From Rhodospirillales bacterium (GTDB lineage: Bacteria; Pseudomonadota; Alphaproteobacteria; Acetobacterales; Acetobacteraceae), in contig JANYFG010000096.1 in NCBI GenBank assembly GCA_025362815.1, forward strand, positions 1 to 64,000: 64,000 bases of DNA, in the 5' to 3' direction. The notes beneath the pieces were generated by a model. It did not search any database, was not told the origin of the DNA, and was given only the letters and a program-made list of their open reading frames with translations. This document shows positions 7,094 to 57,203 of this stretch, in pieces. The position numbers were made by a program, and so were the translations under genes. Every line of letters begins with the position of its first letter. Position 1 is the first letter of the stretch.

Positions 7094-7201
7094 GGATGCC
7101 CCTCTGTTGCACCCCATGTGGGGTGGCCGGCGTGAATTAAGAGGCCAAAATAAGAGGTCTGTCGCGGTTGCGCAAAATCGGGGTGCGCGAGACGATAGGG
7201 C

Positions 7202-8056
7202 ATGGACAGTTTGGCGGCCCTGCGGCTGCAGATCGAATGGGGCGCGGACGAGGCGCTGGACGAAAGCCCGGTGGGACGGCTGGCGGTGCGCGCGCAAGCC
7301 GCCGCAGCGGAAACGGGCACGCCGGCACCGCCCGAGACATTCGTGCTCACACCGGCCCGCGCGCCGCTTCCGGTGCCTCCACGCCTTGGGATGCCCTTGG
7401 CCATGCCCTTGGCCATGCACATGCCCATGCCCATGCCCATGGCCATGCCGGCGCAACAGGCCCAGGCGGTGGCCGCCGCGGCGCAGACACGTGCCGAACT
7501 GCGCGCGGCGCTGGAGGCGTTCACCGGGTGCGGATTGTCCGCCACCGCCACCAACCTCGTGTTCGATGACGGCCAGGCCGATTCCGGACTGATGCTGGTG
7601 GGCGAAGGCCCTGGCGCCGAAGAGGACCGCACCGGACGCCCGTTCGTGGGCGCGTCGGGCCAGTTGTTGGACAGGATGCTGGCCAGCGTGGGGTTGGACC
7701 GCACGAAGCTGTTGATAACGAACCTCATTCCGTGGCGCCCACCAGGCAATCGCAATCCCACCGATGCCGAGATCTCGATCTGCCTGCCGTTCCTCCTGCG
7801 GCATATCGCGTTGGTGCAGCCGCGCTATCTCGTGCTGCTGGGGGCGATCTCCACCCAGGCCGTGCTGGCCACGAAAGGTGGCATTTCGAGGCAGCGCGGG
7901 CGATGGATTCAAGCGGAGATCGCCGGGCTGGACGCCCCTGTGGCCACGCTTCCGATGCTGCATCCGGCGTATCTGCTCCGCAATCCCACCGCCAAGGCCC
8001 AGGCCTGGACGGACATGGTCAGCCTGCGACGGCGCCTCGACTCGGACGCAAAATAA
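7202..8056 (+). CDS. Family-4-like uracil-DNA glycosylase
   Basis: 284 residues. The C-terminal two thirds form the glycosylase domain: GEGPGAEEDRTGRPFVG (from about 134), TNLIPWRPPGNRNP (about 173) and HPAYLLRN (about 254). It removes uracil from DNA in base excision repair. Of the four cysteines that hold the 4Fe-4S cluster in classical family-4 enzymes, only Cys110 (TGCGL) and Cys194 (ISICLPF) are present; the first partner is Phe107 and the third is Trp178 (PWRPP). From memory, related alphaproteobacterial proteins share this pattern. The N-terminal 100 residues are low complexity and contain a Met-Pro/Met-Ala repeat from residue 64. Confidence 0.88.
   Translation: MDSLAALRLQIEWGADEALDESPVGRLAVRAQAAAAETGTPAPPETFVLTPARAPLPVPPRLGMPLAMPLAMHMPMPMPMAMPAQQAQAVAAAAQTRAELRAALEAFTGCGLSATATNLVFDDGQADSGLMLVGEGPGAEEDRTGRPFVGASGQLLDRMLASVGLDRTKLLITNLIPWRPPGNRNPTDAEISICLPFLLRHIALVQPRYLVLLGAISTQAVLATKGGISRQRGRWIQAEIAGLDAPVATLPMLHPAYLLRNPTAKAQAWTDMVSLRRRLDSDAK
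7391..7450 (+). repeat. 12-nt tandem repeat inside the glycosylase gene
   Basis: Five consecutive 12-nt units. The first two are identical (ATGCCCTTGGCC), the rest related (ATGCACATGCCC, ATGCCCATGCCC, ATGGCCATGCCG). They encode a Met-Pro/Met-Ala run at residues 64-83, in the non-conserved linker before the catalytic domain. The 12-nt unit preserves the reading frame. Confidence 0.85.
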
Positions 8057-8178
8057 ACTTTTTGTGATGTTTCGCTAAACTCTTGCCATTATGGACGAAT
8101 TTTTGGCCAGCCATATTTCTGAGACGAGTCTCACCACTTAGGGTTGCGGCCAGCAGCCTGGGCGTGTAGTGGCGCGGC

Positions 8179-23190: not shown

Positions 23191-23311
23191 GTCTTTTTCT
23201 GAAGAAAAAAAAGCAAAAAGACTTTTGTAATGGGATTACATGGTGTGGTAATATCCAGACCATGCAATCCCAATGAATGAAGTTTTTTGGTTCTTTTGTT
23301 CACAAAAGAAC
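23191..23311. repeat. Compound AT-rich intergenic repeat, copy 1 (full)
   Basis: Between convergent genes. Left palindrome TTTTTCT-GA-AGAAAAA (23194-23209); then CAAAAAGACTTTT; a central hairpin at 23231-23272 (13 bp plus one A-C mismatch, starting TGGGATT); then GAATGAAGTTTTTTG; then the right palindrome with arms GTTCTTTTGT and ACAAAAGAAC (23290-23311). The palindrome centres are 99 nt apart. The symmetrical AT-rich stems next to T- and A-runs would suit a terminator on either strand. Confidence 0.85.
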
Positions 23312-37179: not shown

Positions 37180-37219
37180 GTTCTTTTGTGAACAAAAGAA
37201 CCAAAAAACTTTATTCAAT
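37180..37219. repeat. Compound AT-rich intergenic repeat, copy 2 (half element)
   Basis: Only the right-hand half is present, inverted relative to copy 1: palindrome arms GTTCTTTTGT and ACAAAAGAAC at 37180-37201, then CAAAAAACTTTATTCAAT. It lies between convergent genes. Its outer border supplies the stop codon (37215-37217) and the last codon of the solute-binding protein gene on the minus strand. Confidence 0.8.
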
Positions 37220-43869: not shown

Positions 43870-45122
43870 GCAGACTCCTTCGCCATCCCCTGGGTCATCC
43901 CCTGGGCCATCCCCTGGGCCAAAGCCTGGGCCACCAGCTCCCACGCATCGTCCGCCAGCCGCGCAAGCCCCGCCGCATCCTCCGGAAGATCCAGCGCCCC
44001 CCGCGCCCGCGCCGGCAACGCCTCGCGCAGCACGGCGAAATCGGCGAGCAACGACTCCACAATCCCGGCATCACCCAGCCCCGCCGCAAACGCCGCCTGC
44101 ACCGGCGCCAGCAGATCCGTGTCCACCAACGCCGGCTTCGTGGTGCGAACGCGCAGCTGCTCCACCCACAGCGTGGCATCCAAAGCAATGGCTGCACTGC
44201 GACATTCCGCGGCCAGCCGTTCGACATCGGCGATCATCGCGCTATGCTCGTCCGTGGCCCCCATAAGCGTGATGCGCGCCAAAATCGGCCGCCCGTCCGC
44301 CGAGGCCACCGCCTCCTGCACCGCGCGCCCGATGCGTCGCACCACCCCCGGCGCATCCGCACCCCCCACATCCACGTCCAGCGCCACCCAGCGCAGAACA
44401 TCCACCACGCGATGTTCCACGCGGGTCACCCGGCTGTCGTCATACGTCACGAGCGTGCAGCCCTTGGCCCCCGTCTCCTTGGGGTGACGGCCCTGGATGT
44501 TGCCGGGAAACACGATCCACGGCCGCTCCGACAGCACGCGGCGCGCATGGATATGGCCCAATGCCCAGTAATCGTAGCCCTTGCCGGCCAGCCCATCCAC
44601 CGTGCACGGCGCATACGTCGCGTGATCGCCGGGGTCGTCGGCGGAGGTGTGCAGCACCCCGATATTCAGCAGCCCCGGCACCGGGGCACCATAGCCGGCC
44701 GACAGATCCTCCGGCACCGCACGCGCCGGGAAAGACCGTCCATGCAGCGCCACCCCCAGATCCGGCCGCACAAACGCATCGCACGTGCGCGACGAGAATT
44801 CCGTCACGTTGTCCGGCAAAACCAGGGTCCTGGTGATGACGGACTGCGCATCGTGATTGCCGCGGACCAGAAAGCACGGCCGCGCAAGGCGTCGCATCTC
44901 CTCGATGAAGAAAAGTCCGGTCGAGAAATCGCGCCATTCGCCGTCGTACAGATCGCCCGCGATCACCACGAACGCCACCTCCTCGGCGATGGCGAGGTCG
45001 ATCAGCGCCGAAAACGCCCGACGGGTGAAATGCGCGATGATCCCCGCCGGAAGATCAGACCGGCTGCGCAAGCCCGCCAACGGGCTGTCGAGATGAATGT
45101 CGGCCGTGTGCAAGAACTTCAT
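43866..45122 (-). CDS. Metallophosphoesterase DNA exonuclease, YhaO/SbcD type
   Basis: 418 residues. Motifs of the Mre11/SbcD nucleases: TADIHLDSPL (about 7-16), AGDLYDGEW, RGNHDAQS, LHTS and LGHIHARR with metal-binding Asp, Asn and His. The partner ATPase gene overlaps its stop (ATGA), which fixes the pair as a nuclease-ATPase complex analogous to SbcCD/Mre11-Rad50. The C-terminus carries an Ala-Gln-Gly-Met repeat that is encoded by a 12-nt tandem array close to the stop. Confidence 0.88.
   Translation of the reverse strand: MKFLHTADIHLDSPLAGLRSRSDLPAGIIAHFTRRAFSALIDLAIAEEVAFVVIAGDLYDGEWRDFSTGLFFIEEMRRLARPCFLVRGNHDAQSVITRTLVLPDNVTEFSSRTCDAFVRPDLGVALHGRSFPARAVPEDLSAGYGAPVPGLLNIGVLHTSADDPGDHATYAPCTVDGLAGKGYDYWALGHIHARRVLSERPWIVFPGNIQGRHPKETGAKGCTLVTYDDSRVTRVEHRVVDVLRWVALDVDVGGADAPGVVRRIGRAVQEAVASADGRPILARITLMGATDEHSAMIADVERLAAECRSAAIALDATLWVEQLRVRTTKPALVDTDLLAPVQAAFAAGLGDAGIVESLLADFAVLREALPARARGALDLPEDAAGLARLADDAWELVAQALAQGMAQGMTQGMAKESA
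43884..43931 (-). repeat. 12-nt tandem repeat at the 3-prime end of the exonuclease gene
   Basis: Four 12-nt units (plus strand CATCCCCTGGGT, CATCCCCTGGGC twice, CAAAGCCTGGGC) encoding Ala-Gln-Gly-Met/Ala-Gln-Ala-Leu repeats, 15 nt before the stop codon. Confidence 0.85.
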
Positions 45123-45161
45123 GGCGCGAGGCTATAGAAGGCGAACAGCACAGGGCAAGAT

Positions 45162-45283
45162 GTTCTTTTGTGAACAAAAGAACCAAAAAACTTCATTCAA
45201 TGGGCGCGTTGTGCGGATGTTTCCGGAATACGCACGCCCTATGGATAAAAGCCTTTTTGCTTCTTTTTCTTCAGAAAAAGAAG
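45162..45283. repeat. Compound AT-rich intergenic repeat, copy 3 (full, inverted)
   Basis: Reverse orientation to copies 1 and 4. Palindrome GTTCTTTTGT-GA-ACAAAAGAAC at 45162-45183, CAAAAAACTTCATTCAAT, central hairpin anchored by GGGCG/CGCCC (45202-45239), AAAAGCCTTTTTG, then palindrome arms TTCTTTTTCT and AGAAAAAGAA (45261-45282). Centres are again 99 nt apart. It lies downstream of tRNA-Met and upstream of the exonuclease gene, all read on the minus strand, unlike the convergent sites of the other copies. Confidence 0.85.
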
Positions 45284-45296
45284 AAGAAGAAAGGGA

Positions 45297-45371
45297 TGGT
45301 AGCGGTGGCCGGATTTGAACCAGCGACCAAGAGATTATGATTCTCCTGCTCTACCGCTGAGCTACACCGCC
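45297..45371 (-). tRNA. tRNA-Met (anticodon CAT), probably elongator
   Basis: 75-nt cloverleaf on the minus strand: acceptor GGCGGTG paired with CACCGCT-side, D-arm GCTCAGCGGTAGAGC, anticodon loop ATCATAA, T-arm GCTGGTTCAAATCC and encoded CCA. The GGCGG/CCGCTACCA acceptor is like alphaproteobacterial elongator tRNA-Met. The variable-arm and T-arm segment resembles tRNA-Ile2, whose CAT anticodon is modified to lysidine, so that identity is possible. Confidence 0.93.
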
Positions 45372-45424
45372 ATCCCATCGACCCGACGCCACACGCCCCG
45401 AGCGAGGCGGGGGAGATAGCCTTG

Positions 45425-46498
45425 TCACGCGCCCCCGTCAATAACCCGCGCCCGGATGAACCCGCCGCCCAGCACCCGCGTGCCGTCGTAGAACACGCAG
45501 GCCTGCCCCGGTGCCGCCCGCGCCGGCGTGTCGAGATCCACGAAAACCTCCGCCCCCTCAACCCGCACAGAGGCCGCATGCGCCACCTCGCCGGAACGGA
45601 GCTTCACCAGGCACCGCATCGCACCGCGCGGCCCCAGCCAGTTCACGTCCCGCAACGCCAGCGTGGTGGCGCCCGGCGGTGCGGTGTCCACCACCACACG
45701 CATGGTGGCAGCCTCCAGCCCCACCACAACGCGCCGCCCGCCGGCCACCTGCGCAGTACCCAGCCGCTTGGCCTGGCCGATGGTGTAGTTCGCAATGCCC
45801 GCGTGCCGGCCCACAACCTCGCCCGAAGCCGTCACGATATCGCCCGCAAGCATCGCGTCCGGCCGCAGATTGCCCACCACGCGGGCGTAGCTGCCCTGCG
45901 GCACGAAGCATATGTCCTGGCTGTCCGGCTTGGCCGCCACCTCAAGGCCGAACCGCGCGGCCTCGGCCCGCACATCGGCCTTGGTGGGATAATCGCCCAG
46001 CGGAAACAGGCAGCGGTCGAGCTGCGCCTGGGTCGTGGCGAACAGAAACCAACTCTGATCGCGCGCGACATCCACCGCACGGTGCAACTCGGCGCCGCCT
46101 CCGGTATCTGTACGGCGCACGTAATGGCCCGTGGCCAGCCGCTCGGCGCCGAGATCGGCCGAAAGCTTCACCAGATCGGTGAATTTGACGGACTGGTTGC
46201 ACGAGATGCACGGCACCGGCGTCTCGCCCGCGGCGTAGCTGTCCGCGAACGGCTGGATCACCGCATCGCGAAAACGCTGCTCGGCGTCGATCACGTAATG
46301 CGCAAAACCCAGCCGGTCCGCCACGTCGCGCGCGTCGTGGATATCCTGCCCGGCGCAGCACGCGCCCTTTTTCCGGATCGCCGCGCCATGATCGTAAAGC
46401 TGCAACGTCACGCCGATGACCTCGTGCCCCTGCTCGTGCAGCAGGCCGGCCACCACCGAACTGTCCACCCCGCCCGACATCGCCACCACGATGCGCAT
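45425..46498 (-). CDS. mnmA: tRNA 2-thiouridylase MnmA
   Basis: 357 residues from the ATG at 46498; the upstream extension overlaps the ferredoxin gene antisense-like frame and is not family sequence. PP-loop SGGVDSSVVAGLL near residue 9, the catalytic Cys region PVPCISCNQSVKF (about 100), and the second Cys in DSQDICFVPQGSY (about 200). It makes 2-thiouridine at position 34 of Lys, Glu and Gln tRNAs using sulfur from a cysteine desulfurase. It is the last gene of an operon with two desulfurases, so the sulfur route is encoded locally. Confidence 0.95.
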   Translation of the reverse strand: MRIVVAMSGGVDSSVVAGLLHEQGHEVIGVTLQLYDHGAAIRKKGACCAGQDIHDARDVADRLGFAHYVIDAEQRFRDAVIQPFADSYAAGETPVPCISCNQSVKFTDLVKLSADLGAERLATGHYVRRTDTGGGAELHRAVDVARDQSWFLFATTQAQLDRCLFPLGDYPTKADVRAEAARFGLEVAAKPDSQDICFVPQGSYARVVGNLRPDAMLAGDIVTASGEVVGRHAGIANYTIGQAKRLGTAQVAGGRRVVVGLEAATMRVVVDTAPPGATTLALRDVNWLGPRGAMRCLVKLRSGEVAHAASVRVEGAEVFVDLDTPARAAPGQACVFYDGTRVLGGGFIRARVIDGGA

Positions 46499-46506
46499 GG
46501 GCGAGC

Positions 46507-46839
46507 CTATCCCTGCAGCGCGTTGCGGCTGGAGGCGGGCAGCTTCACCACCAGCCCGTCCAAAGCCTGGGTGATCACGATCTGGCAGCCGAGGCGCGAC
46601 GTCTTTTCCAGGCCGAACGCGAGGTCGAGCATGTCCTCCTCGTCCTCGCTGGCCTTCTTCAGCTTGTCCGCCCAGGCGACGTCCACGATCACATGGCAGG
46701 TGGAACATGCAAGAGACCCCTCGCACGCGCCCTCGATGTCCACGCCATGCTTGTGCGCCACCTCCAGCACGGACAGCCCGAGCGGCGCCTCGACTTCGCG
46801 GTGGGTGCCGTCACGCTCGATAAAGGTCATCTGGGGCAT
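46507..46839 (-). CDS. fdx: 2Fe-2S ferredoxin, ISC adrenodoxin type
   Basis: 110 residues. Cluster ligands in [16 protein letters not shown] (C-x5-C-x2-C) and the fourth Cys in LGCQIV, the adrenodoxin/ISC-Fdx pattern. Such ferredoxins supply electrons to Fe-S cluster assembly on the scaffold and to cysteine desulfurase. The gene begins nine nt after iscS and ends eight nt before mnmA, so the operon order is clear. Confidence 0.93.
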
Positions 46840-46848
46840 GGTGCTGGG

Positions 46849-47997
46849 TCAGGCCTGCTGGAGGGCATGGGCGGCCACGAGCGCATGCGCCGCGGCCTCT
46901 ATTTCGGTGGCGCTGGTAAAGCGTCCGATGCCGATACGCAAGCTGCGTGACGCTTCGGCATCGCTCAGCCCCATGGCGCGCAACACATAGGAAGGCTCCA
47001 CCACCGCCGAGGAACAGGCAGACCCCGTGGACACACACAGCGAAGGGCACGCCGCCATCAGCGCCTGCGCGCCGCGCTCGGGAAAGCGCAACGCCAGATT
47101 TCCGGCAATGCGCCCCGCCGTTGCGCCATTCACCGCAAGCCCCGCGATGCCCCGGTCGAGCAGGCCGAACAACCGGTCCCGCAACGCCCCGATGCGCGCC
47201 GCATCGGCCGCGCGCTCAGCCACGGCGATCGCGCAGGCCACCCCGAACCCCACCACCAAAGGCGTCGCCAGCGTGCCGGAGCGCAGGCCACGTTCCTGGT
47301 TGCCGCCCGAAAACAGCGCCGCCACCCGCGCCCGCGGCCGCCTGCGAACGTAAAGTGCCCCGACCCCCTTGGGACCATAGATCTTGTGCGCCGTGACCGA
47401 CATCAGATCGATGCCCACGCCCACATCCACCGGTATCTTGCCCAGAGCCTGCGCCGCATCGGTGTGAAACAGCGCGCCGTGCCGCTTCACCAGGGCGGCG
47501 ATGCCCGCGATATCCTGGATCACCCCGGTCTCGTTGTTCACCGCCATCACGCTGACCAGCAAGGTCGGGCTCTCCAGCGCCTCTTCCAGGCGCTCCGGGT
47601 CCAGCGTGCCGTCGCGGCGCACCGGCAGCACCACCGGGTCGAACCCGTCCTCGGCGAGGTCGGCCACCGATTCCAGAACGCATTTATGCTCGGTGGCCAC
47701 CGTGATCACGCGCCGGCGCGGATCGCCCACACGCCGCGCGTGCCGGGCCGCGCCCTTGATGGCGATGTTGTTGCTCTCGGTGGCGCCGGACGTGAACACG
47801 ATCTCCCGGGGATCGGCGCCTATGGCAGCCGCCACCTCGCCCCGCGCGTGCTCCACCGCCGCCTCCGCCACCCGCCCCATCGCGTGTTCGGACGAATGCG
47901 GATTGCCGAAATCCTCGGTGAACCACGCCATCATGGCGGCGAGCACACGCGGATCGCACGGGGTGGTGGACTGGTTGTCGAGGAAGATCATCGCCAT
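46849..47997 (-). CDS. iscS: Cysteine desulfurase, IscS/NifS type
   Basis: 382 residues of a class V PLP enzyme: FLDNQSTTPCDPRVL start, SGATESNN (about 70), TEHKCVLES, VNNETGVIQD, HTDAAQALGK (about 180), the PLP Lys in TAHKIYGPKG (about 204) and the mobile active-site Cys loop STGSACSSAVVEPS (about 325). It releases sulfur from cysteine as enzyme persulfide for Fe-S clusters and tRNA thiolation. It is 15 nt downstream of a second desulfurase gene and nine nt upstream of fdx. Confidence 0.92.
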   Translation of the reverse strand: MAMIFLDNQSTTPCDPRVLAAMMAWFTEDFGNPHSSEHAMGRVAEAAVEHARGEVAAAIGADPREIVFTSGATESNNIAIKGAARHARRVGDPRRRVITVATEHKCVLESVADLAEDGFDPVVLPVRRDGTLDPERLEEALESPTLLVSVMAVNNETGVIQDIAGIAALVKRHGALFHTDAAQALGKIPVDVGVGIDLMSVTAHKIYGPKGVGALYVRRRPRARVAALFSGGNQERGLRSGTLATPLVVGFGVACAIAVAERAADAARIGALRDRLFGLLDRGIAGLAVNGATAGRIAGNLALRFPERGAQALMAACPSLCVSTGSACSSAVVEPSYVLRAMGLSDAEASRSLRIGIGRFTSATEIEAAAHALVAAHALQQA

Positions 47998-48012
47998 CGC
48001 TTCTATATGGTG

Positions 48013-49092
48013 TCAGACGGCGGCCCGTGAAAGCCGCTGCGCCATCGCCTGATAGGCCGCGACGAAACCATCGATATCGGCGGCGCCCACGTTCCATGGC
48101 AACGAAACCCGGATCGCCTCCCCGGCCAGCGTCCCCAGCCCCATCGCGTCCAGCACATGCGAGCGCGCCACCTTGCCGGAGCTGCACGCAGCCCCCGCCG
48201 ACACCGCGATCCCCGCCAGATCCAGCGCCATCACCTGCACCTGCGCCGCCACGCCGGGCAAAGCGAGGCAGCTGGTGTTGCCCAGCCGCTTCGCGTCCCG
48301 CGCGATGACCACCGCCGCCACGCCCCGCTCCAGCCGGTCGCGAAGCGGCGACATATCGGCCACCGGCACGTCGCACGCCGCCCCCAACCCCGCGATGGCG
48401 GGCAAGGCCTGCGTGCCGCCGCGCCAGCCGCGCTCCTGCCCACCGCCCCGGATCATTGGGGTCACGGCCCCGCGCGGCGCCAGCAGCAGCGCGCCGGTCC
48501 CGGGCGGGCCGCCCATCTTGTGGCCCGAAATCGCCAGGCTGTCGGCGCCGAGTTCGGCCAGATCCATCTCCATTCGCCCGGCGGACTGCGCGGCATCCAC
48601 ATGCAACAACGCCCCGGCCGCCCGGCACAGCCTGGCCGCCTCGGCAATCGGCTGGATCGTGCCGGTCTCGTTGTTGGCGTGCATCAGGCACACCAAAGCG
48701 GGCGCCCCCGCCAGAAGCCGCTCCAAACATGCGAGATCGGCCACGCCGTCGCGACCCACCGGCAGGATCTCGGCCCCCGGCGCCCCCGCGCGAATGGCGT
48801 CATGCTCGGTGGCCCCCACGATCAGCCGACGCCTCTCGCCTGACATCTGGATCGCCAGCGCGTGGATCGCCAACGCATCCGCCTCGGTGCCGCCGGACGT
48901 GAAGATCACAGCCTCCGCCAGCACGCCAAAACGGCGCGCCACCTGATGTCGCGCCTGTTCCAACAACCGTCGCGCCGCACGCCCCCCGGCATGGATGGAC
49001 GACGGATTGCCGCCCACATCCATCGCGGCACACATCGCCGCCCGCGCCTCCGGCCGCAACGGCTCGGAGGCATTGGCGTCCAGATAGATCAT
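48013..49092 (-). CDS. Second cysteine desulfurase, NifS-like
   Basis: 359 residues, a diverged paralogue of the downstream iscS. IYLDANASEPLRPEARAAM start, TSGGTEADALAIHA, HANNETGTIQPIAE, HVDAAQSAG, PLP Lys in SGHKMGGPPGTGAL (about 190) and Cys loop SAGAACSSGKVARS (about 297). Both catalytic residues are kept, so it should be active. Shorter than iscS by 23 residues, mostly at the N-terminal and loop regions. It sits between cysE and iscS, with gaps of 20 and 15 nt, suggesting a division of sulfur-donor tasks. Confidence 0.9.
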   Translation of the reverse strand: MIYLDANASEPLRPEARAAMCAAMDVGGNPSSIHAGGRAARRLLEQARHQVARRFGVLAEAVIFTSGGTEADALAIHALAIQMSGERRRLIVGATEHDAIRAGAPGAEILPVGRDGVADLACLERLLAGAPALVCLMHANNETGTIQPIAEAARLCRAAGALLHVDAAQSAGRMEMDLAELGADSLAISGHKMGGPPGTGALLLAPRGAVTPMIRGGGQERGWRGGTQALPAIAGLGAACDVPVADMSPLRDRLERGVAAVVIARDAKRLGNTSCLALPGVAAQVQVMALDLAGIAVSAGAACSSGKVARSHVLDAMGLGTLAGEAIRVSLPWNVGAADIDGFVAAYQAMAQRLSRAAV

Positions 49093-49112
49093 CGCGGTGT
49101 CAATCAGCCAGG

Positions 49113-49781
49113 CTATTCAACCGCCTGGACGCGCGCGGTGCGCATCATGCGCGCCTCCAGCTCGGCCAGGGCGCCGCGCATATGCTCCAGCTCGTGCAGC
49201 AGCGGGTCCAGATCGCAATCGGTCGGCGTGCCGTACGCGTCGAAAACCGGCTTGCGGCCGGGCGACTTCTCCACCCGCCGCGCCACCGGCCGCGCCGGTA
49301 TGCCCACCACCGTGGTGTTGGCGGCAACCGCGCTCACCACCACCGCGTTGGCGCCCACGCGCGCATTCTCGCCCACCAGGATGCCGCCGAGGATCTTCGC
49401 CCCGGCGCCCACGATCACGTTGTTGCCGATCGTCGGGTGCCGCTTGCCGCGCGCCGTGCTGGTGCCGCCCAGCGTCACCTGATGATATAGATACACGTCG
49501 TCGCCGATCTCGGCGGTCTCGCCGATCACCACGCCCATGCCGTGATCGATGATCAGCCGGCGCCCGATCGTGGCGGCCGGATGGATCTCGATACCCGTCA
49601 AAAACCGCCCGAGATGCGCCGTCATGCGGGCGGGCAGGATGGCGCCGCGGGTCCACAACCCATGCGCCAGGCGGTGCCAGATCACGGCGTGCAGGCCGGG
49701 ATAGCACAGCAGCACCTCGAGCGCGGACCGCGCCGCCGGGTCGCGCTCACGATAGGCCTGGATCATCTCACGCAAAAACAT
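49113..49781 (-). CDS. cysE: Serine O-acetyltransferase
   Basis: 222 residues from the ATG at 49781. The N-terminal helical part is short ([19 protein letters not shown]), as in the compact EpsC-type enzymes. The left-handed beta-helix shows hexapeptide repeats: [44 protein letters not shown], with catalytic His in DHGMG, and [28 protein letters not shown]. It makes O-acetylserine, the precursor of cysteine. First gene of the operon with two cysteine desulfurases, ferredoxin and mnmA, so cysteine supply and use are coordinated. Confidence 0.92.
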
Positions 49782-50192
49782 GATGGCCCCAAAACATTTT
49801 CGTTCTCCCAACCAACCGTTTCGACCTATGATTGAAAAATCGCGCGACGACAGTGAACATGGGGAAGCACTTCCGCCGGGCAAACCTCGTGTGCCGATAA
49901 ATGACGCGCCCGCACACAAAACAACGGCACAAGAGCACGGCACAGGTTTCGCCCCCAGGTTGTAAATTGCTGCGATGCGGTCATGCAGAGAACGCAGGGC
50001 AGAAAGTTTCCGCTTGCAACCGCCCCTTCGTTCGCTGCACCACTAAGGTCTTAAGACAGCATATCTTTCTAAGCCACAGGTTGCGTTGCGTATCGTGGGC
50101 GATATTAAACGGAGCGGCGCAGTCCTAGCTTCCCGAGGGTCTCAAGCCGGATCGAAACGGTCGGGCGAACAGGAAACGGATTTTCGTACACA
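49782..50192. other. 411-bp divergent intergenic region
   Basis: Separates the sulfur operon (minus) from the alpha/beta hydrolase gene (plus). It is less GC-rich than the flanks and no credible gene fits. It holds a perfect 10-bp palindrome GTCTTAAGAC (50048-50057) and a candidate hydrolase promoter at 50081. I see no Rrf2/IscR-type regulator gene, which often starts such operons. Confidence 0.6.
50081..50108 (+). promoter_or_regulatory. Candidate sigma-70-type promoter for the alpha/beta hydrolase gene
   Basis: TTGCGT, 16 nt, TATTAA, about 85 nt before the hydrolase start. Reasonable match at both hexamers for a GC-rich genome, but unsupported by anything else. Confidence 0.3.
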
Positions 50193-50858
50193 ATGCCAGA
50201 GGTCATGTTCGCCGGTCCTGACGGCCGGTTGGAGGGTCGTTATCACCACTCCAAGGAAACAGGCGCGCCGCTCGCGCTCATTCTGCATCCCCACCCGATG
50301 CATGGGGGCACAATGAACAACCGAATATCCTACACCATGTTCGAATCGTTCAAGAAGCTCGGCTTCTCCGTCATGCGGTTCAATTTTCGCGGCGTGGGCC
50401 GCAGCCAGGGCCGCTACGACGGCGGCATCGGCGAAATCGGCGACGCCGCGGCGGCGCTCGACTGGATGCAGGCGGTCAACCCGAATTCCGGCGGCCTGTG
50501 GATCGCCGGCTACTCGTTCGGCGCCTTCGTCGGCATGCAGCTACTGATGCGCCGGCCGGAGATCTCGGGCTGGGTCAGCGTCGCACCGCCCTCCAACCAC
50601 TATGATTTCGGCTTCCTCGCCCCCTGCCCCTGCGGCGGCCTGCTGGTCCATGGCGACAGCGACGAGCTGGTGCCGGAGCCCGCCGTGCGCAAGCTGGTGG
50701 ACAAGCTGAACACGCAGAAAAACGTCCAGGTCGACTATCGCATCATGGCCGGCGCCGATCACGTGATGGCCAACCACGCCGAGACGGTGGCCGCCCATCT
50801 CGAAGACCACGTCACCAAAACGATGGCCCGCCGCACGATGGCGCTCGCCGCCGATTGA
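50193..50858 (+). CDS. Alpha/beta hydrolase of unknown substrate
   Basis: 221 residues. LILHPHPMHGGTMNNR (about 28-43), oxyanion region RFNFRGVGRSQGRYDGG, nucleophile elbow GYSFGAF (Ser about 108), acid Asp in HGDSDELVP (about 152) and His in GADHVM (about 187). This compact layout, with the HPHPxxGG motif, recurs in alphaproteobacterial alpha/beta hydrolases of no assigned role. A 14-nt tandem array begins 12 nt after its stop. Confidence 0.82.
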   Translation: MPEVMFAGPDGRLEGRYHHSKETGAPLALILHPHPMHGGTMNNRISYTMFESFKKLGFSVMRFNFRGVGRSQGRYDGGIGEIGDAAAALDWMQAVNPNSGGLWIAGYSFGAFVGMQLLMRRPEISGWVSVAPPSNHYDFGFLAPCPCGGLLVHGDSDELVPEPAVRKLVDKLNTQKNVQVDYRIMAGADHVMANHAETVAAHLEDHVTKTMARRTMALAAD

Positions 50859-50870
50859 AGGCGGCCGATT

Positions 50871-50922
50871 GAACGTAGCCGGCCGAACGTAGCCGGCCGA
50901 ACGCAGCCGGCCGAACGCGGCT
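50871..50922. repeat. 14-nt tandem array just after the hydrolase gene
   Basis: Units of 14 nt: GAACGTAGCCGGCC twice, GAACGCAGCCGGCC, and a partial GAACGCGGCT. Before it, 50857-50870 (GAAGGCGGCCGATT) looks like a decayed unit overlapping the end of the gene. It lies between the hydrolase stop and a terminator-like hairpin. Confidence 0.85.
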
Positions 50923-50934
50923 CATCTGACGTTT

Positions 50935-50972
50935 GAAAACGGCGTCGTCCCCCTGGGGTCGGCGCCGTTTTC
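50935..50972 (+). terminator. Terminator-like hairpin between hydrolase and tyrS
   Basis: 10-bp stem GAAAACGGCG / CGCCGTTTTC with an 18-nt loop that can itself pair (CCCC/GGGG); the right arm ends in TTTTC. It probably terminates the hydrolase transcript. Confidence 0.6.
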
Positions 50973-51038
50973 GGTCCGGCTTCTGGACTTCGTCCCCCCG
51001 GCGGTGTTTTCTCCCGCTCCGTTGTCCAGGACAGTCCG

Positions 51039-52283
51039 ATGCCCAAAAGCGATTTCCTTCACGAGGCCACCGAGCGCGGCTTCGTCTTCCAGACCACCGA
51101 CAGCGAGGCGCTGGACGCCGCGTTCGCGCGCGGCCAGGTCACGGGATATATCGGCTTTGACTGCACCGCCGACAGCCTGCATGTCGGCTCGCTCGTCCAG
51201 ATCATGCTGCTGCGCCTGATGCAGCGCACCGGCCACCGCCCCATCACCCTGATGGGCGGCGGCACCACCCGCATCGGCGACCCAAGCCTGCGCGAAGAAG
51301 CCCGCCAACTTCTCACAGACGCCCAGATCGCCGCCAACATGGCCGGCATCCAGCGCTGTTTCGCCCCCTACATCACGTTCGGCGAGGGTCCGAACGATGC
51401 GCTGATGCCGAACAACGCCGAGTGGCTCGACAAGCTTGGCTATATCGAGCTGCTGCGCGAGGTCGGCATCCATTTCAGCGTCAACCGCATGCTCGGCTTC
51501 GACAGCGTCAAGACCAGGCTGGACCGCGAGCAGGGCCTGACCTTCCTCGAGTTCAACTATTCCATCCTGCAAAGCTACGATTTCCGCGAGCTCAACCGTC
51601 GCCACGGCGTCACGTTGCAAATGGGCGGCTCGGACCAGTGGGGCAACATCGTCTCCGGCGTCGACCTCGTGCGCCGTACAGACGCCAAGCAGGTTTTCGG
51701 GCTCACCACCCCGCTGATCGCCACCGCATCCGGCGCCAAGATGGGCAAATCCGCGAAGGGGGCGGTATGGCTCACGTCCGACCGTCTGAGCGCCTACGAT
51801 TTCTGGCAGTTCTGGCGCAACACCGAAGACGCCGATGTCGGCCGCTTCCTGCGTCTGTTCACCGACATGCCCCTGGCCGAGATCGCCCGCCTGGAAGCGC
51901 TCGGCGGGGCGGAGATCAACGAAGCCAAAAAGATCCTGGCCACCGCCGCCACCGCGCTCGCCCACGGCCAGGCTGACGCCCACGCAGCCGCCGAGACCGC
52001 GCGCCAGGCCTTCGAGGAAGGCACCGCCGCCGAAACCCTGCCCGCCATCACGGTCACACACGCCGAACTCGCAGCCGGGATCAGCGCCATCAAGCTGTTC
52101 GTCGACAGCGGCCTTGCCACCAGCAACGGCGAGGCCCGCCGCCTCATTCGCGGCGGCGGCGCCCGCCTGAACGACGTCGCCATCGCCGACGAAGCGCAGA
52201 TCATCACCACGGCCGACCTGATCGCCGGCGCTGCGAAACTTTCCGCCGGACGAAAGAACCATCGGCTGGTTCGTGTAGGTTAA
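51039..52283 (+). CDS. tyrS: Tyrosyl-tRNA synthetase
   Basis: 414 residues, class Ic synthetase of the TyrRS-I type. The HIGH-equivalent is HVGS (48-51), Tyr-binding region [24 protein letters not shown] (about 197-205), KMSKS-equivalent KMGKS (234-238), and a C-terminal S4-like RNA-binding domain ([27 protein letters not shown]). Charges tRNA-Tyr. A compound AT-rich repeat begins 10 nt past its stop, where it converges on a protease gene. Confidence 0.96.
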
Positions 52284-52292
52284 AGATAAGGA

Positions 52293-52414
52293 TTTCTTTT
52301 TCTGAAGAAAAAGAAACAAAAAGACTTTTACTCATTTAAATACACGTTGCGAGTATATCGGCAACGCGCACCTGAATGAATGAAGTTTTTTGGTTCTTTT
52401 GTTCACAAAAGAAC
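52293..52414. repeat. Compound AT-rich intergenic repeat, copy 4 (full)
   Basis: Best-preserved copy. Left palindrome with arms TTTCTTTTTCT and AGAAAAAGAAA (52293-52316), CAAAAAGACTTTT, a central hairpin with CGTTGC/GCAACG arms (52345-52366), GAATGAATGAAGTTTTTTG, and the right palindrome GTTCTTTTGT-TC-ACAAAAGAAC (52393-52414). The palindrome centres are 99 nt apart, as in copies 1 and 3. It lies between the convergent tyrS and retropepsin-like genes. Confidence 0.88.
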
Positions 52415-52423
52415 ACCTTGGAT

Positions 52424-53302
52424 TTAGAAAGTTAAATTACTCTTCCCATAATCCACCACAAAAGCCTGCCGCCCCAGCACATCCATTCCCAAAACCATAT
52501 CGAACGCCGCCTCAGGCACATCGTTCACCGCAAGCGCCGGCGCGTCGATCCGCAGGCCACCCAGCTGGAGGCTGCGGAACGTGTGGCGTTTGACGTCGAA
52601 CGTGCCGCCCAGCCCGAGTGCCTCATGCGTGGGGTCGCGCACGATGTCGGCTTGCGTGAGACCCATCCGATACAGCCCGCGCGCGTTCAGCAGCGACGAC
52701 CCGGCGCCGGTGTCCACCAACGCCTGCAACGGCCGGCCGTCGAGCCGCACCGTCACGAGCATCAAAAACCGCCGCCAGGGCGTGAAGCCCACGGCATGGC
52801 CGGCGCGTGGGCAGGCCTGCGAATCCTGCACCAGAAGCCGCCCGGCGGGCACGTCGATCTCCAGCGTGTAGCGATGCAGCAGATCGGCGCCGAGCAGCCC
52901 CGCCGCCGGGCCGAGATCGAGCGCCATGACGGGCATGCTGAGCGGCACGCGCGGGGTGCGCTGAAACAGCGAAAGCCCCCCCAGAGTCAGCCCCGGCACG
53001 ATGGCGTTGCGATGCTCGTCGAGCCGCCCTCCGGCCCCGCGCATCGCCGTGCCCACCCACTCGTCCAACGACAATCCCAGCCGCGTCACGGTGGCGCGCG
53101 TCAGCACGCTGCGTTCGGCCCCTGTGTCCAGCACCATGCGCAGAGTCTGCCCGCCGAGCGACACCGGCACGACGCAATAGCCGTCGGTCTGCAAGGCGAC
53201 TTCAGCCAGATTCCCACGCGGCGCGCAAGCGTCCGACGCGCGTCCAGGGTGGCCTGCACCGAGAGCCAAACCCAGCCCGGCGAGCAAAGCCCGGCGCTTC
53301 AT
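52424..53302 (-). CDS. Retropepsin-like aspartic protease with two DTG motifs
   Basis: 292 residues from the ATG at 53302, which overlaps the purD stop as ATGA. A Sec or Tat-like signal (MKRRALLAGLGLALGAGHPG) leads into two retropepsin-like halves: VLDTGAERSVLTRA (about 56-69) and LVDTGAGSSLLNARG (about 183-197). Each is followed by a hydrophobic GADLL/GMDVLG pattern (LLGADLLHRY, VLGMDVLGRQ). Two halves in one chain could pair internally like pepsin. Periplasmic, substrate unknown. It follows purD in the operon; the repeat starts 10 nt after its end. Confidence 0.8.
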   Translation of the reverse strand: MKRRALLAGLGLALGAGHPGRASDACAPRGNLAEVALQTDGYCVVPVSLGGQTLRMVLDTGAERSVLTRATVTRLGLSLDEWVGTAMRGAGGRLDEHRNAIVPGLTLGGLSLFQRTPRVPLSMPVMALDLGPAAGLLGADLLHRYTLEIDVPAGRLLVQDSQACPRAGHAVGFTPWRRFLMLVTVRLDGRPLQALVDTGAGSSLLNARGLYRMGLTQADIVRDPTHEALGLGGTFDVKRHTFRSLQLGGLRIDAPALAVNDVPEAAFDMVLGMDVLGRQAFVVDYGKSNLTF

Positions 53303-54576
53303 CCGGCCGATGCGAGCGCGCGCCAGGCGATATCGCGCCGGCAGAACCCGTCCGCCCACGCCAGCGCATCCACCCCGGCATAGGCGCTGGCCCGCGCGGA
53401 GGCGATGCTGGCCCCGGTGGCGCACACGCTCAGCACGCGCCCGCCGTTGCTGACCAGCACGCCATCTAAAAGCGCTGTCCCGGCATAGAACACTTTCACA
53501 TCCGCCACCGCCTCGGCCCCGGCGAGCGAGCCGATCGGCGTGTGCGGCCGGGGTGCCTCGGGATAGCCGGCGGCCGCCATCACCACGGCCACCGCGGCGC
53601 GCTCATGCCAGCGCAGATCGTAATTCCCCAGCTCCCCATCGCAAGCCGCCACCAGCGCGCCGAGCAGATCGGATTTCAGGCGCAGCATCAGGCACTGGCA
53701 TTCGGGGTCGCCGAAGCGGACATTGTATTCGATCAGCTTCGGCCCGTCCGCGGTCAGCATCAGCCCCGCGAACAGAATGCCGCGAAACGGCGTGCCGCGA
53801 CGATGCATCTCCGCCAGCGTGGGCCGGATGAACCGCGTCATGATCTCGGCCTCCAGCGCGGGCGGCAGGCAGGGCGGCGGCGAATACGCGCCCATGCCCC
53901 CGGTGTTCGGCCCCCGATCCCCGTCGAACACCCGCTTATGGTCCTGCGCGGCGCCCAGCGAAATCGCCGTCAGCCCGTCGCAGAGCGCGAACACGCTCAC
54001 CTCCTCGCCTTGCAGGAACTCCTCGATCACCACCGCAGCCCCGGCCGCGCCCAGCGTGCCCGCCTCCATGAAATCGGCAATCGCGCTTTGCGCCTCCGCC
54101 TCGGTCATGGCCACCACCACGCCCTTGCCGGCCGCCAGGCCATCCGCCTTGACCACCAGCGGCGCACCCCGCCGGCTGACGAAATCGCGGGCCGCGGCGG
54201 CATCGTCGAACCGCTCCCACAAGGCGGTGGGAATACCGGCGGCGTCGGCCACCTCTTTGGTGAAGGTCTTGCTGCCCTCCAACGCCGCCGCCGCCGCCGA
54301 GGGCCCGCAACACGCGATGTCGGCGCGCGCCATGGCGTCGGCGATCCCCGCCACCAAAGGCGCCTCGGGACCGGGGATCACCAGATCGATGTTGTTTTCG
54401 GCGGCGAAGATCACGAGCTCGGAGATGTCCATCACCCCGATCGGCACGCACTCCGCCACGGCCGCGATCCCGGGATTGCCGGGGGCGCAATAAAGCTTGC
54501 TCAGCATCGGAGATCCCGCGATCGCCCAGCACAAAGCGTGCTCGCGCCCGCCATTGCCGATTACCAGAACGCGCAT
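53299..54576 (-). CDS. purD: Phosphoribosylamine-glycine ligase
   Basis: 425 residues of an ATP-grasp enzyme: MRVLVIGNGGREHALCWA, PGPEAPLVAGIADAM, LVVKADGLAAGKGVVVA (about 140-156), DHKRVFDGDRGPNTGGMGAYSP (about 210-231) and EYNVRFGDPECQ (about 280). It makes glycinamide ribonucleotide in purine synthesis. It is coupled to the protease gene by an ATGA overlap and is divergent from xseA across 82 bp. Confidence 0.96.
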   Translation of the reverse strand: MRVLVIGNGGREHALCWAIAGSPMLSKLYCAPGNPGIAAVAECVPIGVMDISELVIFAAENNIDLVIPGPEAPLVAGIADAMARADIACCGPSAAAAALEGSKTFTKEVADAAGIPTALWERFDDAAAARDFVSRRGAPLVVKADGLAAGKGVVVAMTEAEAQSAIADFMEAGTLGAAGAAVVIEEFLQGEEVSVFALCDGLTAISLGAAQDHKRVFDGDRGPNTGGMGAYSPPPCLPPALEAEIMTRFIRPTLAEMHRRGTPFRGILFAGLMLTADGPKLIEYNVRFGDPECQCLMLRLKSDLLGALVAACDGELGNYDLRWHERAAVAVVMAAAGYPEAPRPHTPIGSLAGAEAVADVKVFYAGTALLDGVLVSNGGRVLSVCATGASIASARASAYAGVDALAWADGFCRRDIAWRALASAG

Positions 54577-54658
54577 CGCATCACTCCCGTTTCTCGCTTC
54601 GTTCGTCGTGCGGCCGGCCGTACTTTCCGACCCGGGAAAGCTGCCTTAGAATAATAAG

Positions 54659-56164
54659 ATGGACGATGCGCGCACCAATATCCCCGAATACACCGTAAGC
54701 GAAATCTCGGGCGCGGTGAAACGCACCCTGGAAGGCGCCTTCGGCCGCGTGCGGGTGCGGGGCGAGCTGACGGAGGTGAAGCGCTACCCTTCCGGCCACA
54801 TCTATTTTTCGCTGAAGGACGAAGGCGGCAAGATCTCCGGCGTGGTCTGGAAATCCGCCGTCTCCAAGCTCGGCATGCAGCCCGAAAACGGCGTGGAGGT
54901 GATCGCCCAGGGCAAGGTGTCCTCCTACGGCGACCGCTCCAGCTACCAGCTCATCGTCGACCGCATGGACTATGCCGGCGCCGGCGCGCTGCTCGCCAAG
55001 ATCGAGGCCTTGCGACTGCGCCTGGCCGAGGAAGGCGTTTTCGACGCTGCCCGAAAACGCGCGCTGCCGATGCTGCCGGTGGTGATCGGCATCGTCACCA
55101 GCCCGCAGGGCGCCGTCATCCAGGACATTCGCACCACCATTCTACGCCGCTTCCCCCGCGCCCTGCTGCTCTGGCCCGTCCCGGTGCAAGGCGAGGGCGC
55201 GGCCGCCAAAATCGCCGCCGCCATCGACGGATTTTCCGCGATCGCCGCGGGCGGGCCCATTCCCCGCCCGGACGTCATCATCGTCGCGCGCGGCGGCGGC
55301 TCGCTCGAAGACCTCATGGCTTTCAACGACGAAGCGGTGGTCCGCGCCGCCGCCGCGTCCAGCATTCCGCTGATCTCGGCGGTGGGTCACGAAACCGACA
55401 CCACGCTGATCGACTATGCGTCGGACAGGCGCGCCCCCACCCCCACCGCCGCCGCCGAAATGGCGATCCCGGCAAGGTCCGAGCTGCTGTCCGACCTGTT
55501 GCAGAAAGCCGCCCGCCTGGAGGGCAGCCTCGGCCGCATCGCCCAGGAAAAGCGATTGCGCCTGCAACGCGCCGAACGCGGCCTGCCCGATCTCCAAGCG
55601 CTCGCCGGCGCCGCCCGCCAGCGTCTCGAAGACCGCAGCACGCGCCTGATTCTGGCACTTCCCAACCTCGTCGCCGCGCGCAGGGCGGCCCTCATCCGGG
55701 CGGAGCGCGGCCTGCCGGACCCCGCGGCCCTGGTGGTGCAGGCAAAGCGCACGCTCGGCGACCGCGCTTTAAGGTTGCGCATCGCTCTGCCCAACGTGGT
55801 CAGCGCACGCCGGCAGCAGGTGGCCCTGGCATCGCTTCATCTGCGCTCGGCGCTGCGTCACGCCACCGCCGGCCGCGCGGCAATGGCCGCCCGCGTGCTG
55901 CCCCGCCTGACCGATGCCCCCGTCCGCGCCCGCCTGCGCGAAGCGCATGCCCGGTTGGAGGGCTTGGGCGCGAGGCTGGAATCAGTCTCCCACAAAGCCG
56001 TCCAGGCGCGCGGCTACGCTCTGGTGTACGACGAATTTGGCCAAGCCATCACCACCGCCGCACAAATTCGCCCCGGCGGTAATTTACGCCTGAGCTTCGC
56101 TGACGGCGAAGTGGCAGCAACCGCAAACGGCGGAAGACCAAGACAAATCAGCCTAAATCTCTAG
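54659..56164 (+). CDS. xseA: Exodeoxyribonuclease VII large subunit
   Basis: 501 residues. An N-terminal OB fold (VRVRGELTEVKRYPSGHIYFSLKD, about 32-55), the catalytic core with GIVTSPQGAVIQDI (about 144), ARGGGSLEDLMAFNDE (about 210-225), SAVGHETDTTLIDYASDRRAPTPTAAAE (about 240), and a helical tail. It degrades single-stranded DNA with XseB, which is not here. The helical tail contains a 43-residue segment repeated twice in tandem without gaps (305-347 and 348-390; each starts AERGLPD and contains ALPN-V-ARR). Confidence 0.95.
   Translation: MDDARTNIPEYTVSEISGAVKRTLEGAFGRVRVRGELTEVKRYPSGHIYFSLKDEGGKISGVVWKSAVSKLGMQPENGVEVIAQGKVSSYGDRSSYQLIVDRMDYAGAGALLAKIEALRLRLAEEGVFDAARKRALPMLPVVIGIVTSPQGAVIQDIRTTILRRFPRALLLWPVPVQGEGAAAKIAAAIDGFSAIAAGGPIPRPDVIIVARGGGSLEDLMAFNDEAVVRAAAASSIPLISAVGHETDTTLIDYASDRRAPTPTAAAEMAIPARSELLSDLLQKAARLEGSLGRIAQEKRLRLQRAERGLPDLQALAGAARQRLEDRSTRLILALPNLVAARRAALIRAERGLPDPAALVVQAKRTLGDRALRLRIALPNVVSARRQQVALASLHLRSALRHATAGRAAMAARVLPRLTDAPVRARLREAHARLEGLGARLESVSHKAVQARGYALVYDEFGQAITTAAQIRPGGNLRLSFADGEVAATANGGRPRQISLNL
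55571..55828 (+). repeat. 129-nt tandem duplication in the xseA helical tail
   Basis: Encodes residues 305-347 and 348-390. The two copies align without gaps at AERGLPD, at ALPNLVAARR against ALPNVVSARR, and at several positions between. Divergence shows the duplication is old. Confidence 0.6.
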
Positions 56165-56167
56165 AGC

Positions 56168-56199
56168 GTGATGATTTTGAGTAGAAGCAAAATCATCAC
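56168..56199. repeat. 12-bp inverted repeat directly after xseA
   Basis: Perfect stem GTGATGATTTTG / CAAAATCATCAC with an 8-nt loop, beginning four nt past the xseA stop. It occupies the place of the left palindrome of the compound repeat but has a different sequence. Confidence 0.75.
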
Positions 56200-56218
56200 A
56201 CTCTATTCTTGTTTGATC

Positions 56219-56265
56219 GATCATGTTTATGCGTTCGGGTTAATCAACCCAAACGCATCATGATC
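56219..56265. repeat. Long imperfect hairpin in the xseA/acyltransferase gap
   Basis: About 20 paired bases: GATCATG/CATGATC, a 3-nt bulge, ATGCGTT/AACGCAT, a C-A mismatch, then GGGTT/AACCC around AATC. It is the longest hairpin of the window. Confidence 0.75.
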
Positions 56266-56270
56266 TAATA

Positions 56271-56307
56271 GAATGAAGTTTTTTGGTTTTTTTGTTCACA
56301 AAAGAAC
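56271..56307. repeat. Compound AT-rich intergenic repeat, copy 5 (right half)
   Basis: GAATGAAGTTTTTTG then the palindrome GTTTTTTTGT-TC-ACAAAAGAAC (56286-56307), with one C-to-T change breaking the left arm. Located between the convergent xseA and acyltransferase genes, next to two unrelated hairpins. Confidence 0.8.
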
Positions 56308-56312
56308 ATCTG

Positions 56313-57203
56313 TTACTTGCTGTCCTTCGGCCACCGCCGATGCAACCAAAGCCACTCCCCCGGCCGTGCCCGGATCCAGCGCTCCAATATCCCATTGATC
56401 TCGCTCGTCACCCGCAACAGGTCCGCCTGCCGGTCGCCGCTGTCGGGCAGCACCAGCGGCGCCTCCACCACCAGCCGCAGCCGCGCGGGACCGAGGCGTT
56501 CCACGTGGGCCGGCACCAGCGGGCAGCGATAACGCAGCGCGAAGGCGGCGGCGGCCGGCGCTGTCATGGCGGTATGGCCGAAGAACGGCGCCGCGATGCC
56601 GTCGTTCATCTTCTGATCCACCAGCATGCCCAGGGTGCCACCGTGCCCGAGATGCGCCAGCGCCGCCCGCGCGCCTTTGCTGCCTTTGGCGAAATTCGGC
56701 ACATCCTGGCCCACCGCCGACATTCGCAGCGCCATGATCATCGCATCCACCGCCGGATTGGCGGCCGCGCGATAGAAGCTGCTCAACCGGATGCCGAACG
56801 CCCCCGCCGCGCGCGGCAGCAATTCCCAGTTGCCGATATGGCCGGACACGAAAATGGCACCCCCGCCGTGTGCCGCCAATGCGTGGGCGATCTCCGCCCC
56901 CACGACCTCCCAGCCCGGCCCCACCACGGTGCGTTCCAGCCGGCCGATATGCGGCAGTTCGGCCGCGGTGCGCCCCAGATTGTCCCACACATCGCGCAGC
57001 ACCACGCGGCGCCGGGCGGCATCCAGCTCCGGCATGGCCAGGCGCAGATTGGCATCCCCGATGCGATGAACCGGCAGCAACGGCCCCACCATGCGCGCCA
57101 GAAACCCACCGAGGTTGGACGCCGCCACCGGCCCAAGACGCCGCAGGATCGCCAGCAGCGCGCGCACCGCCAGCGCCTCCACCCAATATTGAACGGCCTT
57201 CAC
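56313..57203 (-). CDS. LpxL/HtrB-type lipid A acyltransferase
   Basis: 296 residues from the GTG at 57203, which overlaps the lpxK stop as GTGA. The acyltransferase motif SGHIGNWELLPRAAG (about 129-143) has the catalytic His and Glu (H-x4-E). FYRAAANPAVDAMIM, GMLVDQKMNDGIAAPFFG and EWLWLHRRWP are further HtrB-type blocks. An N-terminal membrane-binding helix precedes them. It adds a secondary acyl chain to lipid A on the inner membrane. Last gene of the lipid A operon; a compound repeat follows its stop by five nt. Confidence 0.88.
   Translation of the reverse strand: MKAVQYWVEALAVRALLAILRRLGPVAASNLGGFLARMVGPLLPVHRIGDANLRLAMPELDAARRRVVLRDVWDNLGRTAAELPHIGRLERTVVGPGWEVVGAEIAHALAAHGGGAIFVSGHIGNWELLPRAAGAFGIRLSSFYRAAANPAVDAMIMALRMSAVGQDVPNFAKGSKGARAALAHLGHGGTLGMLVDQKMNDGIAAPFFGHTAMTAPAAAAFALRYRCPLVPAHVERLGPARLRLVVEAPLVLPDSGDRQADLLRVTSEINGILERWIRARPGEWLWLHRRWPKDSK

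Follow-up and report, generated by a model that had tools for sequence, protein, structure and literature searches.

A dispersed palindromic element of an Acetobacteraceae genome as a candidate bidirectional terminator between convergent genes

What keeps two short palindromes at a set distance from each other when the sequence between them differs from copy to copy? This question is raised by an element located in the window, that is, the whole stretch of 64,000 nt that was analysed, which comes from the genome of a Rhodospirillales bacterium (the host genome; 3.05 Mb, 126 contigs, 76% complete). The copy under study is composed of a left block (L), a core, and a right block (R), and lies between two converging open reading frames (ORFs) (Table 1). 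The left neighbour ORF is matched in 5 of 7 congeners at 79-83% over most of its length (query 6801-8077), and the right neighbour has a weak partial match in one congener (G003). When scanned at gathering thresholds against Rfam, the whole window yielded two tRNAs only. Judging from the sequence, the dispersed palindromic element of about 120 nt, present in about 110 copies in the assembly, is a candidate bidirectional intrinsic terminator between convergent genes, a reading that, in our judgment, could go either way.

Table 1. Coordinates of the element, its parts, its neighbours, and its other copies in the window
Feature	Position	Strand	Remarks
Window copy under study	52294-52414	+	L block, core, R block
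L block	52294-52329	+	22-nt palindrome 52294-52315, A-tract, ACTTTT; near-invariant across 44 aligned copies
Core, sequence-variable hairpin (~52 nt)	52330-52381	+	Fold, covariation, arm swaps
R block	52382-52414	+	T-tract GAAGTTTTTTGG, 22-nt palindrome 52393-52414; near-invariant across 44 aligned copies
Left neighbour ORF, 414 aa	51039-52283	+	Points at the element; stop 10 nt before it
Right neighbour ORF, 333 aa	52424-53425	-	Stop end 9 nt past the element; convergent pair
Second full copy	23191-23311	+	Hairpin centres 99 nt apart
Third full copy	45162-45282	-	Hairpin centres 99 nt apart; adjoins tRNA-Met (45297-45371, minus)
Right half alone	37180-37212	-	R motif without the left half
Right half alone	56275-56307	+	Abuts an unrelated palindromic repeat at about 56161-56268

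Copy number and length of the element

L read as its reverse complement resembles R, which makes the element as a whole an imperfect inverted repeat; both of its ends contain a small hairpin. In the full copies from the host genome, the outer flanks are purine-rich on the left (about GGAAAGAAT) and pyrimidine-rich on the right (about ATCTTTTCC), and thus the inverted symmetry extends some 10 nt past L and R. Searches of the host genome returned 108 matches to the R motif (with up to 3 mismatches) and 75 matches to the L motif, and none to either reversed control; hence the repeat is not due to chance. Among the 102 R copies in the fetched host-genome loci, 70 have an L within 175 nt. A covariance scan, in which 150 of the 495 candidates were scored and many elements were listed on both strands, added 4 places beyond the motif matches listed, and decayed copies may form a further tail beyond these counts.

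The distance of exactly 99 nt between the hairpin centres, which an earlier note had counted, holds for all three full copies in the window (Table 1). The constancy that the note read into this distance stands only in part: 99 nt falls within the mode of the host genome (11 of the 69 L-R pairs have precisely this spacing, and 42 lie between 95 and 101 nt), but the distances span 54-160 nt. Thus, the many spacer lengths that the note had named as counter-evidence do occur (27 of the 69 pairs are outside 95-101 nt), albeit around a mode. The short forms look like core deletions; they have no GC-rich stem, with L and R intact.

The palindromic repeat that adjoins one of the solitary right halves in the window is about 107 bp long (TCTAGAGCGTGATGATTTTG...) and is found in more than 30 places of the host genome among the matches listed, with 90-98% identity. 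This repeat is much younger than the hairpin element. It also abuts a right half on contig C117 (L054), and a hairpin similar to it follows an L half on contig C95 (L110).

Fixed ends and a diverged core

Compared pair by pair, the 46 full copies differ on average by 0.066 in the L block, 0.010 in the R block, 0.442 in the core, and 0.708 and 0.685 in the outside flanks. The middle of the element had been described as a segment without obvious shared sequence; in the alignment of 44 full copies, a common hairpin consensus emerges instead (TGCGTGTTGCGGAAATATCCGCA..ACGCA). This consensus, together with the core difference of 0.44 as compared to about 0.7 in the flanks, indicates that the core is homologous among the copies and has diverged. 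The two closest cores among the 46 full copies are still 0.18 apart, so that recent copying is not seen.

Two loci (L006 and L127) have their flanks in common, with 94.8% identity over 366 bp, as if the element had been duplicated together with a gene. In this single pair, in which both loci lie at contig ends, the core has 10 differences in 55 positions, as compared to 1 in 35 for L, 0 in 30 for R, and 8 in 231 for the upstream sequence (core versus ends, p = 0.0025; core versus upstream, p = 0.0004), which suggests that the core changed in situ and that the ends were retained. The earlier proposal of a fixed-length unit that is copied with a variable core fits neither the distance between the closest cores nor this in-place change. 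Two properties appear to be maintained, namely, the end sequences and the ability of the core to pair.

Pairing and covariation in the core

The stem of the core was named from one copy (L079), and pairing across the alignment was compared with 500 shuffles. Altogether, 71.6% of the 823 cells pair, as compared to 65.3% in the shuffles, and two-sided change is observed in 16 of the 20 stem pairs versus 13.2 in the shuffles (a value reached in 25 of the 500). The number of double-change cells (76 versus 43.8 +/- 5.6) and the covariation score (0.212 versus 0.140 +/- 0.011) were not reached in any of the 500 shuffles. When the partner was shifted by 1-3 columns, pairing was only 28-42%. An alignment-free test, in which the arms of the hairpin were swapped between copies, gave 14.70 Watson-Crick pairs with the copy's own arm versus 12.73 with the arms of other copies (0 of 20,000 permutations) and versus 13.21 when the swapped arms were GC-matched (0 of 20,000); the respective energies were -17.9 kcal/mol for own and -14.3 kcal/mol for swapped arms (0 of 10,000).

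The same test was applied to two other genomes with 10 copies each. In G002, own arms pair better (32 of 10,000 permutations); in G092, the result was negative (5681 of 10,000), and because the hairpin is off-centre in several of the G092 copies, a mid-point split makes a poor test there. When run on the aligned copies, RNAalifold missed the core stem and reported the end hairpins without covariation.

From the covariation and the arm swaps, we infer that the core must keep its pairing rather than its sequence, and under such a constraint, it would drift with compensating changes. In this respect, the stem of the element is like those of the intrinsic terminators of Bacillus cereus, for which compensatory evolution is reported (PMC5381666). 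Of the selected overall geometry that had been suggested earlier, the pairing of the core survives; the length of the element, with its spread of 54-160 nt, does not.

Terminator shape

The core hairpin is flanked by the L and R blocks, each with its own small hairpin, and on each strand, the core stem is followed by a conserved T-tract. The tail score was computed as a running product, with the weights and the threshold of -2.5 given in PMC12306157 and PMC1852404. On the plus strand, the stem ends no more than 2 nt from the T-tract in 43 of 46 copies, with a median tail score of -5.44; on the minus strand, it does so in 22 of 45 copies, the median gap being 5 nt and the median tail score -4.12. 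All 91 tails score at or below -2.5, which is true of 7.5% of random positions in the window. Weaker T-rich stretches also follow the outer hairpins: of 103 R hairpins, 51% have a tail that passes the threshold, and of 75 L hairpins, 32% do, with 8.7% for random positions. The core hairpins have energies between -39.5 and about -3 kcal/mol, and some copies would therefore not be strong terminators; a terminator scan of positions 44000-57000 did not flag the two full copies there.

Given a paired core and T-tracts just behind converging stops, bidirectional intrinsic termination would be the most economical function for the element: RNA polymerase arriving from either gene would stop at the T-tract behind the core hairpin. 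Similar to the bidirectional intrinsic terminators described in PMC1852404, the element combines an A-tract, a stem, and a T-tract and occupies gaps between convergent genes. Unlike ordinary terminators, which form no repeat family, its tails and outer palindromes are one and the same sequence in about 100 copies. A repeated sequence in inverted pairs is also characteristic of the uptake-sequence terminators of Neisseria and Pasteurellaceae, where, according to PMC1852404, it serves as terminators; in these, the repeat forms the stem, whereas in the element described here, the stem is variable and the repeat makes up the tails and the outer hairpins.

The outer 22-nt palindromes are conserved more exactly than termination would explain or require, which suggests that they have a further, sequence-specific role, for example, binding by a protein or by a mobiliser. 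Alternatively, the element could be a site for a chromosome-binding protein (gyrase, a nucleoid protein, or a new factor) placed where transcription units converge, and its core hairpin could be a by-product. The palindromes are near-invariant and are present even in copies lacking the core or the opposite half, as would be expected of such a site, and convergent gaps are the places where positive supercoils meet. BIMEs of Escherichia coli bind gyrase and IHF. However, the patchy distribution of the element, with no match in 109 of 150 genomes of the family, is at odds with a protein site of this kind, and the T-tract adjacent to the stem and the covariation of the core would be left unexplained; we consider this explanation improbable.

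Gene context

Gene context was assessed with a gene caller based on our own codon score rather than a published caller. With these calls, both sides could be classified for 70 of the 95 host copies, of which 53 are located between convergent, 15 between tandem, and 2 between divergent genes; the stop codons lie at a median distance of 27 nt on the left side and 26 nt on the right side. Compared to the background, in which 9 of 44 gene pairs of the window are convergent, this is an excess (p = 5e-23). In the pair-finder comparison, L ends of the host genome were missed and 4 of the 5 window places were found, so that the host counts of that comparison serve as the gene-pair background only. In the stretches from four other genomes (G157, G092, G110, and G026), the element is present in 24 of 82 convergent gaps versus 36 of 353 others (pooled p = 5e-5); genome by genome, in the same order, the p values are 0.020, 0.083, 0.015, and 0.069, where the G092 stretches were chosen for holding copies. 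Five of the 70 elements of these four genomes are inside called genes. For the copies that consist of R only, the context counts read as showing no bias of orientation toward the upstream gene.

Annotated plasmids provide further instances. In plasmid pL11-B of Pseudoroseomonas cervicalis, the element fills the gap between two genes, 4 and 9 nt from their annotated convergent stops, and in plasmid pL11-A, it is located between tandem genes. The gene pairs on either side of the pL11-B element (L304, 1169-3897) carry identical annotations in mirror order (carboxymuconolactone decarboxylase family and NAD(P)-dependent oxidoreductase), which may reflect an inverted duplication with the element at its centre.

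Location as such is no proof of function because REPs in general favour gene-end places; as described in PMC3733652, they are found mostly between unidirectional and convergent ORFs.

REP-like features, RAYT, and mobility

The element shares several features with the REP/BIME repeats and the REPINs of the GTAG and CGTC super-families, namely, short palindromic units that are often arranged in inverted pairs, occur in many copies, and are situated mostly behind stop codons (PMC3733652). Unlike these repeats, it has AT-rich units without a GTAG or CGTC tag, neither of which is present at the unit ends of the 44-copy consensus, and a long core hairpin that covaries while the ends stay fixed; furthermore, the host RAYT is framed by other REPs.

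The RAYT of the host came to light in two steps: PF01797 had no match in the host genome, and the absence of RAYT that this seemed to imply was overturned by a match to NF047646, at full model length and with no inner stop, on the window's contig, outside the window (C102:104343-104780). An R copy lies 354 nt from this apparently full-length gene, which would be in line with the element being a REPIN that is moved by the host RAYT transposase. In the same vein, RAYT is commoner in the genomes that carry the element (16 of 41) than in those that do not (13 of 109; p = 4e-4, on the assumption that one identical 150-genome sample underlies both scans) and is present in 12 of the 22 carriers with at least 10 copies. 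The motif is found near RAYT in 5 of 18 carrier loci, where 1.4 would be expected (p = 0.014, or 0.06 at 1.5-fold density), and in one locus (L153), an R-like motif lies beside the RAYT gene. However, the REPs that frame the host RAYT are three copies of a GTAG type (GTAGGATGGGTAAGC...GCCACCCATC; L272:1068, 1342, and 1954), which flank the matched stretch at 16 nt on one side and about 130 nt on the other and are unrelated in sequence to the element. Among the 34 RAYT loci scanned, GTAG-type REPs are near 14 and the element is near 5. In addition, no RAYT match was obtained in 10 of the 22 copy-rich carriers (G157 and G148 among them), and the element lacks the tags of the known super-families. 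The link of the element to RAYT is weakened, though not removed, by the GTAG REPs around the host gene; a weak statistical link persists, and mobilisation by the host RAYT seems to us quite unlikely.

The element is also reminiscent of MITEs, being small, non-coding, and dispersed, with imperfect terminal inverted repeats. Unlike for MITEs, no target-site duplication was seen (the best of 1040 offset tests reached z = 3.14 with 23% matching letters), the copies are not recent, and no parental transposon was recognised; no autonomous transposon with the same ends was noticed among the listed L and R places of the host genome.

Distribution in related genomes

A relaxed version of the pattern was detected in 41 of 150 sampled genomes of the family, with 1 to 612 copies each, and the reversed control in none. 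Under the stricter R motif, eight members of the genus contain 109, 36, 8, 2, 0, 0, 0, and 0 copies, respectively. One of the two copies in G004 is on a contig (C125; L118) that is 99.9% identical over 701 bp to contig C36 of the host (L072); this contig is perhaps mis-binned or from a near-identical strain. Cores of other sequence, several of which form strong hairpins and others weak ones, are surrounded by close versions of L and R in the congener G002 and in G008, G026, and G166. The total length of the element in G002 is 112 nt in 5 of the 8 pairs shown. In G008, G166, and P. cervicalis, the L block is identical to the host consensus over 35 nt.

In four cases (L045/L136, L076/L212, L008/L130, and L020/L131), the same neighbouring gene has an element next to it in both genomes. 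At three window sites, no motif is present in the corresponding stretches of six to seven congeners (L182-L199), two of which (L187 and L199) stop at a contig end, with the gap itself outside of them, and the orthologous gaps are too diverged for an insertion point to be placed. The uneven copy number and the motif-free orthologous stretches suggest that the family is gained or lost readily, that is, it would spread, or disappear, with ease.

Such a distribution, from 109 copies to 0 within the genus and from 1 to 612 in 41 of 150 genomes of the family, along with the absence of the motif from the orthologous stretches of the three window sites, would be expected of a selfish REP/BIME- or MITE-like element without a host function that is tolerated behind stop codons since other places are harmful and whose hairpin is kept for mobility machinery acting on a folded strand. 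L and R would then be its inverted-repeat ends, and its location would match that of published REPs, which also reside mostly between unidirectional and convergent ORFs (PMC3733652). We nevertheless find this explanation doubtful. Recent copies, with even the closest cores 0.18 apart, are lacking; the duplicated locus kept its ends and changed its core without transposition; no target-site duplication was found; and mobility does not require T-tracts on both sides of the stem.

The terminator reading and mobility can be combined. The element could be a transposable two-way terminator across Acetobacteraceae, with ends fixed by sequence-specific recognition and a core hairpin of free sequence kept by pairing, which would supply a ready-to-use stop in both directions at any convergent gap that it enters and would then be retained by the host. 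We put this forward tentatively, as a possibility that may well prove wrong. Should this hold, a generic genomic part, namely, the stop between convergent genes, would be provided by a dispersed repeat, and about 100 parallel records of terminator stem evolution beside fixed tails would be available in a single genome. The contrast between the ends and the core within one element raises the question of what reads the outer palindromes.

Several minor observations pertain to the occurrence of the element elsewhere. A replichore polarity in G092, with a strand bias along the chromosome, was considered and dropped because the fuller listing is mixed, with 55 plus and 53 minus among the matches listed. 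The plasmid matches that span most of a query come from Pseudoroseomonas cervicalis, a member of the Acetobacteraceae; one short match of 29 nt is in an Enterococcus plasmid. The R motif is also found near contig ends of a metagenome-assembled genome named Rikenellaceae (L031, L033, and L035), where the neighbouring sequence is different; these occurrences represent either contamination or an unrelated repeat. The motif strings of the element were not found in published text in an exact-string literature search, and the literature searches turned up no paper on this repeat. For another member of the Acetobacteraceae, Lichenicola cladoniae, 1,369 predicted REPs are given in PMC12306157, and these may include the element described here.
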